From Gammaproteobacteria bacterium (GTDB lineage Bacteria > Pseudomonadota > Gammaproteobacteria > Chromatiales > Chromatiaceae), in NCBI GenBank assembly GCA_015490795.1, contig WFXD01000059.1:1-64000 (forward strand): DNA of 64,000 nucleotides, in the 5' to 3' direction. The notes beneath the pieces are model-generated. The model ran no database searches, was not told where the DNA came from, and was given only the letters and a program-made list of their open reading frames with translations. Positions 6,449-27,450 of this stretch are shown piece by piece (position 1 is the first letter of the stretch; each line of letters opens with the position of its first letter). A program made the position numbers and the translations under genes.

Positions 6449-6494
6449 GCTCCTGCCTCTTCTGTTTGATGTTTTATGATGCCTGGTGGATGAT

Positions 6495-6566
6495 CCTGGA
6501 AAGATCAGTTGAGCCTACTACGAGCGTCTAAGGTGCTCTCGCTACGGCTCAACTGATTTTTCTAGG
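6495..6566. repeat. Short palindromic element, copy 1 (72 bp)
   Basis: The left arm at 6495-6515 and right arm at 6546-6566 are inverted repeats matching at 19 of 21 positions, built around ATCAGTTGAGCC and GGCTCAACTGAT. The 30-base centre contains CGTCTAAGGTGCTCTCGCTAC. The same arms and pieces of the centre recur at 27192-27370 in a much longer version. It lies in the divergent region between the transaldolase-like gene and the AMP phosphorylase gene. It looks like a small mobile or REP/MITE-like element and could form an RNA or DNA hairpin. Confidence 0.8.
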
Positions 6567-6711
6567 ATGATTGTCCTGGAAATGGACAGATCAATCTATC
6601 GGTATTATTGCAAGTACCTCTATAGTATAAAGACGGGCTTTACCAAAAGCCTCACTATTTTACATTTCGTACGCATCTACTGTTCATGCAACAGCGTTGG
6701 AACACCGCATT

Positions 6712-27134: not shown

Positions 27135-27191
27135 GAGTTACCCTGATTGATAAATTGAGTGGTGACCTGTATCAGGTCTTAGGTAGTATTT

Positions 27192-27370
27192 AACCTAGAT
27201 AAATCAGTTGAGCCTACTGTGAACGTCTAATGCACTCAATCTACAGGATTTTTTCCCACATTTTGAACTCACCGTATGGGTGATACGCAATCGTTCAAAA
27301 TATGGGAAAAAATCCAGTATCTTAAGCACCTTAGCCGCTCTCGCTACGGCTCAACTGATTTATCTAGGTT
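27192..27370. repeat. Long nested palindromic element, copy 2 (179 bp, MITE-like)
   Basis: Perfect 23-base inverted repeats bound the element (27192-27214 and 27348-27370), with AACCTAGATAAATCAGTTGAG at the left end. Inside lies a second pair of 23-base arms (27246-27268 and 27293-27315) that match at 22 positions, around GGATTTTTTCCCA. The intervening stretches (CGTCTAATGCACTCAATC against CTTAAGCACCTTAGC) also pair imperfectly, so nearly the whole element can fold as one hairpin. The outer arms and adjacent parts are shared with the 72-bp copy at 6495-6566. It carries no coding sequence and lies between the FKBP gene and tatD. Confidence 0.88.
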
Positions 27371-27450
27371 TAAAACTATTTTTTTATGACATCATACCTG
27401 ATGCTTTTCTTCCGTTGAAATCCGTTTTGTATGACAAGTTTTTTGCGCGG

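Follow-up and report, generated by a model that had tools for sequence, protein, structure and literature searches.

Long-stem MITEs are already known (PMC2229807, PMC10969869, PMC5896051). ERIC, Correia/NEMIS, and similar elements are non-autonomous, intergenic sequences of 100 to 200 bp whose transcripts are predicted as long stem-loops (PMC2229807, PMC10969869). Covarying mobile motifs consisting of a single stem have been listed as well, and 250 mobile/repeat candidates are counted in PMC11109978. The IS1380 family includes ISEcp1, which has the terminal repeat CCTAGATTCTACGT and produces 5-bp duplications (PMC7864471). Here we analyzed a window of 64,000 nucleotides from a gammaproteobacterium (the host), which contains a long palindrome between two genes of the same direction. 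The window element is a MITE, probably of the IS1380 group, and its interior belongs to a family found across genera. Contigs of the host assembly, other genomes, and individual loci are designated by C, G, and L numbers where they need to be told apart.

Results

The palindrome and the mobile unit

A nested palindrome of 179 bp at 27192-27370 had been proposed, with perfect 23-base outer repeats and inner 23-base arms carrying one mismatch. Sequence reading and a repeat search confirmed both arm pairs, the outer at 27192-27214 and 27348-27370 and the inner at 27246-27268 and 27293-27315. Nearly the whole palindrome had also been expected to fold on itself, and it does: the 48-nt stretches 27221-27268 and 27293-27340 are 79% complementary, and the + strand fold of 27180-27385 reaches -88.2 kcal/mol versus -36.8 ± 4.1 in 200 shuffles (z, -12.6). 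The extent of 179 bp stood for the palindrome but not for the mobile unit. Comparison of copies showed that the recurrent unit is 175 bp (27194-27368), with perfect 21-bp inverted repeats as termini, and that the outermost AA/TT of the palindrome is part of the flanking 5-bp target duplication, TTTAA (Table 1). The minus strand of this unit is the better-folding strand and the sense strand of both flanking genes. Most copies in the host genome carry the terminal repeat CCTAGAAAAATCAGTTGAGCC.

Table 1. Features of the full element and of the 72-bp copy, in window coordinates
Feature	Position	Strand	Basis or remark
Full element, 175 bp	27194..27368	-	Copy boundaries, duplications, family, fold strand
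Left terminal repeat CCTAGATAAATCAGTTGAGCC	27194..27214	+	Sequence reading
Right terminal repeat, perfect inverted copy of left	27348..27368	-	Sequence reading
Target duplication TTTAA, left	27189..27193	.	Copy comparison; single at the empty site in G003
Target duplication TTTAA, right	27369..27373	.	Copy comparison
Interior under covariance model R1, 139 nt	27212..27350	-	Model and covariation
Palindrome TCACC-GTATG-GGTGA	27269..27283	.	Center 83 bp from left end, 93 from right
Alternative hairpin CGTAT / ATACG, overlapping palindrome	27273..27287	-	Two-sided change between lineages
72-bp rearranged copy	6495..6566	-	Strand set by remaining arms
Target duplication ATGAT, left	6490..6494	.	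Copy census
Target duplication ATGAT, right	6567..6571	.	Copy census

Copies, target duplications, and empty sites

The host assembly comprises 2.76 Mb in 125 contigs. A search with the 12-mer ATCAGTTGAGCC, allowing at most one mismatch, gave 59 forward and 54 reverse matches versus 2 and 0 for the control read backwards; about 99 of these 113 places were listed, and the other 14 were reached via the BLAST list only. BLAST with the element returned 85 matches, a count that includes the palindrome in either orientation. Further copies and target-site duplications around them, which had been proposed as checks, were found in a census of the fetched places: it gave 36 paired elements, 25 of them with identical 5-bp flanks. 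Twenty-five of the 36 paired copies are 173 to 175 bp long (20 with identical 5-bp flanks), and five form a subfamily of 195/196 bp (three with identical flanks) with an extra 20 to 21 bp in one arm. Of the 11 paired copies without identical flanks, those on C31 and C103 abut a second MITE, those on C102 and C114 lie at fold-back contig ends, and the others have mismatches or rearrangements.

Several side observations concern these copies. The 195/196-bp subfamily lies on C31, C41, C75, and C99 (L276, L249, L256, L248, and L275), and its extra arm stretch contains CCCGCTTTTTGGG. A second MITE-like element of about 160 to 165 bp with the ends GAGCCTGTCGGACTTAGG is inserted in CTAG beside family copies on C12 (L265), C31 (L276), and C103 (L039); the ends of the first element themselves contain CTAG. 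At L051 and L054 (C114 and C102) and at L139 (G191), contig ends carry element flanks as inverted copies of each other, which are probably fold-back assembly artifacts.

The tatD-FKBP junction lacks the element in all five same-genus genomes. In G003 and G002, both flanks meet at the junction with overlaps of 5 and 6 bases, corresponding to one target copy; in G005, G001, and G004 the flanks are at most 30 bp apart and the element is absent. A site-specific regulatory hairpin was rejected on these empty sites; the alternative that the repeat is a regulatory site conserved at the same gene in relatives failed. Whole-element relatives were present in 6 of 55 sampled relatives, namely the host and five members of its genus, and a plasmid collection held no DNA match to the window element or to one relative. 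The longest stop-free stretch in family members of window-element length is 57 codons. By crude ORF calls, 1 of 118 copies lies inside an ORF and the others are intergenic. For the 109 of 118 copies that could be oriented (nine host copies have no clear orientation), the same calls place the upstream gene in the same direction 45 times and in the opposite direction 43 times, with both neighbors the same in 23 cases and both opposite in 20. A sense-strand mRNA device, such as a terminator or stability element, is unsupported by these neighbor directions.

The repeat had been taken for a non-autonomous mobile family, and this stands on the many copies, the 5-bp duplications, the five empty sites, and an IS with matching ends elsewhere (see below). 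The features of a MITE were found together: a short element with terminal inverted repeats and target duplications, at multiple sites, with empty counterparts and no transposase gene.

Short copies

Six of the paired host copies are short, at 53, 72, 73, 93, 102, and 102 bp. The 72-bp copy in the window (fold z, -7.8) does share the outer arms and parts of the center with the full element, as sequence reading confirmed. The suggestion that the two represent a full and an internally deleted form of the family needs a qualification: the 72-bp copy does not represent an amplified form of its own, and among the six short copies only the two of 102 bp (C36 and C69) are alike, in 91 of 103 aligned columns. 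Target duplications are intact around the 72-bp and 73-bp copies, and by inspection the junctions in both look like template switches between arms. The 102-bp elements, at C36:17891 and C69:532, have family ends and a foreign interior.

A structured interior shared across genera

Family membership reaches beyond the host, an extension that lay beyond the means of the first reading. Run against a class-wide sample of 369 genomes, with 8 candidates scored in each, a covariance model of the interior, R1, from which the terminal repeats were excluded, matched 22 (host included). These represent 19 of the 272 genera, often with several matches in one genome. Among 398 genomes sampled across the phylum, only the host matched, so the distribution is patchy. 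We collected 97 distinct interiors from 29 genomes or records, 91 of them 137 to 141 nt long; one named carrier is Legionella sp. FW.3.37 (L156). The record JAKISI01 is titled Candidatus Polarisedimenticolaceae, an Acidobacteriota family, yet groups in one genus with records titled Gammaproteobacteria, and its title may be wrong. Terminal repeats differ strongly between genomes (CCTAAAATCCTCAGTTGA, CCTGAATTCGTAACTTCAA, CCTAGATTCCGCAGTTGCC, and others) yet remain inverted, and in the interior conserved letters frame a long stem of freely varying sequence.

Two alignments were made: A3, with 91 rows (the six interiors of 125 to 136 nt were left out), and A4, with 30 of the 97 interiors, from 27 genomes. 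RNAalifold found only 13 pairs in A3; this reflects small indels, and A4 with a stated structure was therefore counted. On the better-folding strand of these 30 representatives, a 44-pair structure is 93.2% paired, the structure having been drawn from the fold of the window element itself, which favors it. Two-sided change was seen in 38 of the 44 stem pairs. Covariation was 0.626; of 500 shuffles (0.217 ± 0.011) none reached this value, and sliding the structure gave at most 0.162. The shuffles ignore relatedness, whereas the slid control does not. Irregularities of the stem are conserved too, with tandem G.U at two places in 23 and 27 of the 30 representatives and tandem GA in 21.

Other structural classes were considered. 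For the center, an H-type pseudoknot was rejected and two alternative hairpins were read instead; connecting loops of 0 to 1 nt make an H-type pseudoknot unlikely. An integron attC site was rejected on inspection, since the core-like letters occur out of order and other lineages have lost them. Rfam 15 gave no match at gathering score in the window, and at 10 family loci it gave matches only below gathering scores. A simple consensus scan around the window copy found no promoter or terminator.

Strand bias of the fold

Because a DNA palindrome is symmetric, the types of mismatch in it should prefer neither strand. In the orientation counted first, A.C outnumbered G.T by 81 to 15 among 1,183 cells, which amounts to G.U on the other strand. 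On the better-folding strand of A4, there were 160 G.U versus 13 A.C among 1,311 cells, and 110 versus 13 after the two conserved tandem G.U positions were removed; the two strands have 93.2% versus 82.0% standard pairs. The same interior strand was the more stable one in 95 of 97 elements, by a mean of 19.4 kcal/mol, versus 2.8 under a coin-flip null.

An earlier control with unpaired sites was confounded by consensus G.U pairs, and a within-genome test was used in its place, covering pairs predicted on both strands, counting each event once per genome, and using 23 of 25 host copies (those at the fold-back contig ends on C102 and C114 were left out). It gave 70 G.U versus 40 A.C (P = 0.005), with nine genomes in favor, none against, and two ties. 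Unpaired positions gave 36:36, and the direct comparison of paired with unpaired positions had a P value of 0.09. Another MITE class, of about 163 bp, was strand biased in 18 of 20 elements (mean, 17.8 kcal/mol); a 240-bp class was less biased (16 of 20; mean, 8.1 kcal/mol), and a third class (n = 3) was unbiased. The combination of covariation and strand-specific wobble pairs, a feature of functional non-coding RNA, was thus found, to be read with the relatedness in the shuffles, the source of the structure, and the P value of the direct comparison. Together, these patterns argue for selection acting on RNA, or on one strand of DNA in folded form, and not on a DNA palindrome alone.

Ends and a candidate driver

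Target duplications have the form NTNAN. Outside the host, 49 of 71 elements with readable ends have identical 5-bp flanks (23 of 94 elements, without readable ends, were left out), with T second and A fourth in all 49. The terminal repeat CCTAGAAAAATCAGTTGA occurs in at least 99 stretches of named genomes; carriers among the matches listed are Methylococcales, Nitrosomonas, Kangiella, Legionella, and mussel symbionts. Some of these stretches belong to other MITE classes, which are about 160, 184, and 240 bp long and have 5-bp duplications. Nitrosomonas OFTM23 loci (L154, L169, L170, and others) carry the 240-bp class, with the same terminal repeats and many copies in one bin.

Four loci, L139 to L142, hold a complete IS with such ends and a frame of 520 to 524 codons. 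The IS at L140 is 1,687 bp long, has ATGAT on both sides, and contains a 524-codon stop-free frame; it alone of the four has an identical duplication, the flanks being inverted at L139 and different at L142, and L141 starting at a contig end. The transposase matches PF13701 at 68.6 bits (cut-off, 34.7). Its best NCBIfam model is NF033539 (transpos_IS1380; E = 3e-37), at 128.2 bits below the curated cut-off of 180, and ISEcp1 transposases are distant relatives, at 26%. The IS starts with CCTAGA or CCTAAA, like ISEcp1 ends, and its 5-bp duplication was seen at one locus (L140). In G191, the transposase-side IS end (L139) and a MITE (L296) have the 19 letters CCTAGATTAATCAGTTGAA in common. In G004, many contigs break off about 100 bp into such ends, the pattern that a collapsed IS would leave. 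A transposase with matching ends had been sought for the family: other genomes provide it (L139 to L142), and the host assembly contains no such transposase and, by exact pattern, no IS-type end (the six matches are MITE copies). On these sequence comparisons the candidate driver group is IS1380-like, with an NF033539 score below the cut-off.

Apart from the terminal repeat and a palindrome described below, no sequence is common to the MITE arms and the IS. We considered the arms as remnants of IS ends and rejected this, mean z values being -0.7 to 1.2 (single best, 6.1), with no similarity beyond the terminal repeat. The conserved part is the structured interior and not an IS remnant. A plasmid of Polaromonas sp. 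P1-6 (L286, 3375-3608) carries a likely 234-bp MITE with the ends CCTAGAAACGGCAGTT beside an IS1380-like transposase gene.

A palindrome at set distances from the ends

TCACC and GGTGA separated by 4 to 6 nt, with at most one mismatch, occur in 63 of 97 interiors versus 0.9 in shuffles. Where the gap is 5 and both ends could be read (47 elements), the center lies 82 to 84 bp from one end and 93 to 96 bp from the other. Two other MITE classes have the palindrome in 13 of 20 and 17 of 20 elements, and in these 30 its center is 81 to 82 bp from one or both ends. In the IS, its distance from the transposase-side end is 92 bp at both L139 and L140 and 94 bp at L141, and in an IS end of G004 it is 93 bp; in L142, a close relative of L141, its left half is altered, at about 94 bp. 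The two distances, about 82 and 93 bp, are roughly one helical turn apart. Within the IS, codons for HP-x-G overlap the palindrome, which the protein may therefore keep, whereas in the MITE it encodes nothing.

Discussion

Our preferred reading, which we consider probable, is that the element is an IS1380-group MITE and that selection on one strand maintains the structured hairpin in its interior. An IS1380-type transposase, from an IS missing in the assembly or no longer present, would act in trans, cutting at the CCTAG ends and inserting with a 5-bp stagger, and the palindrome could be a second contact site of the transposition complex. The strand bias would mean that the fold works as RNA, reached by read-through transcription or from an unseen promoter. 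Since copies lie equally in both orientations, the fold would serve the spread of the element more than the neighboring genes; the even orientation and the conservation over the whole element favor a role for the element itself. Such a benefit might take the form of a stable RNase III-type hairpin that makes intergenic insertions tolerable, or of an RNA that helps transposition. Several findings count against the preferred reading: the NF033539 score under the cut-off, a host assembly in which neither a transposase nor an IS end was found, the P value of 0.09, a structure taken from the window element and shuffles blind to relatedness, the host as sole match in the phylum sample, a simple promoter and terminator scan that came out empty, the lack of an Rfam match at gathering score, arms unlike the IS, and the codon overlap of the palindrome in the IS. 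A bolder version is conceivable though doubtful: the MITE would carry a functional RNA, the strand-specific fold and the set-distance palindrome would be parts of the transposition machinery, and a DDE transposon of the IS1380 group would depend on, or be helped by, a gene-less element through its non-coding RNA or folded strand, with terminal repeats exchanged between lineages while the structured module is kept.

Selection at the RNA level appears to be the best reading of the strand bias, with folded single-stranded DNA as its main rival. According to this rival, which we regard as unlikely, one strand folds in replication or transposition and is recognized in that form. It would give the same bias, which counts against the RNA reading, and we count in its favor that DNA, too, tolerates G.T better than A.C. 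However, tandem G.U and GA motifs are typical of RNA and are conserved here, and the clean 5-bp duplications with a DDE-type transposase suggest double-stranded transposition. That the family is defined by its mobility fits the DNA form, and such a form is raised for a mobile single-stem motif in PMC11109978.

Ranking next, as an improbable account, is an ordinary fold-back MITE of the IS1380 group, in which the hairpin is a by-product of inverted duplication and the two-sided changes arise from arm-to-arm template switching (quasi-palindrome correction). The junctions of the 72-bp and 73-bp copies, which on inspection resemble arm switches, agree with it, as do terminal repeats that likewise change on both sides between lineages, the absence of gene-orientation bias, and the lack of a promoter in the simple scan. 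However, copying between arms works symmetrically and should yield A.C and G.U in equal numbers, whereas 13 versus 160 were observed, and 40 versus 70 within genomes; nor were the conserved tandem G.U and tandem GA erased. That this gene pair has simply conserved a normal regulatory hairpin is hardly credible, even though the element lies between two same-direction genes with its better-folding strand as their sense strand, because the site is empty in all five same-genus genomes, the element is present at many unrelated sites, and orientation bias is lacking. Under the preferred reading of a strand-selected hairpin, an old question becomes testable, namely, whether the transcript or folded strand of a MITE matters for the element's own success; a covariance model and a candidate driver IS are available for this, together with a clean exchange of G.U for A.C that leaves DNA symmetry intact.

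Comparison with known systems

ISEcp1 and the IS1380 family resemble the present system in CCTAG/CCTAA starts, a 5-bp duplication, and a single long transposase gene, their transposases being distantly alike (26%). In contrast, the window element is gene-less, the repeats diverge after the first letters, and the driver transposase falls short of the curated cut-off in NCBIfam. ERIC, Correia/NEMIS, and similar elements share with the window family their size of 100 to 200 bp, non-autonomous nature, intergenic location, and long stem-loops. However, they have TA termini, with 7-bp repeats for ERIC (PMC2229807), whereas the window family has CCTAG ends, 5-bp NTNAN duplications, and a tested strand bias; TA termini with duplications of the ERIC/Correia kind were not found in it. 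The effect of ERIC on mRNA depends on orientation, whereas the window family has no orientation bias.

QMITE1 and QMITE2 of Coxiella burnetii are similar in their roughly 50 copies, stable folds, some small RNAs, and the presence of a full-size and a smaller form (PMC5896051). They differ in that QMITE1 is 300 to 400 bp with 2- to 3-nt repeats and QMITE2 is 150 to 190 bp with 7- to 11-nt repeats, and the portion of PMC5896051 available to us describes no IS1380 link. MRSC-65-2 and other "mobile/repeat sequence candidates" are alike as multicopy, single long stems with strong covariation and gene-independent orientation, for which a DNA form was considered (PMC11109978); MRSC-65-2 carries the repeat UYCCGG, which reading of the window element did not find. 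The window family could already be among the 250 candidates of that paper. In the literature searched, no paper describing the family was found, and as far as that literature shows, what would be new is the family, its link to the IS1380 group, the variability of its ends, the palindrome at set distances, and the wobble test. Bacterial MITEs have mostly been seen as passive IS scraps; here the fold of a gene-less element persists across genera and its wobble pairs are confined to one strand, while the terminal repeats differ among lineages.
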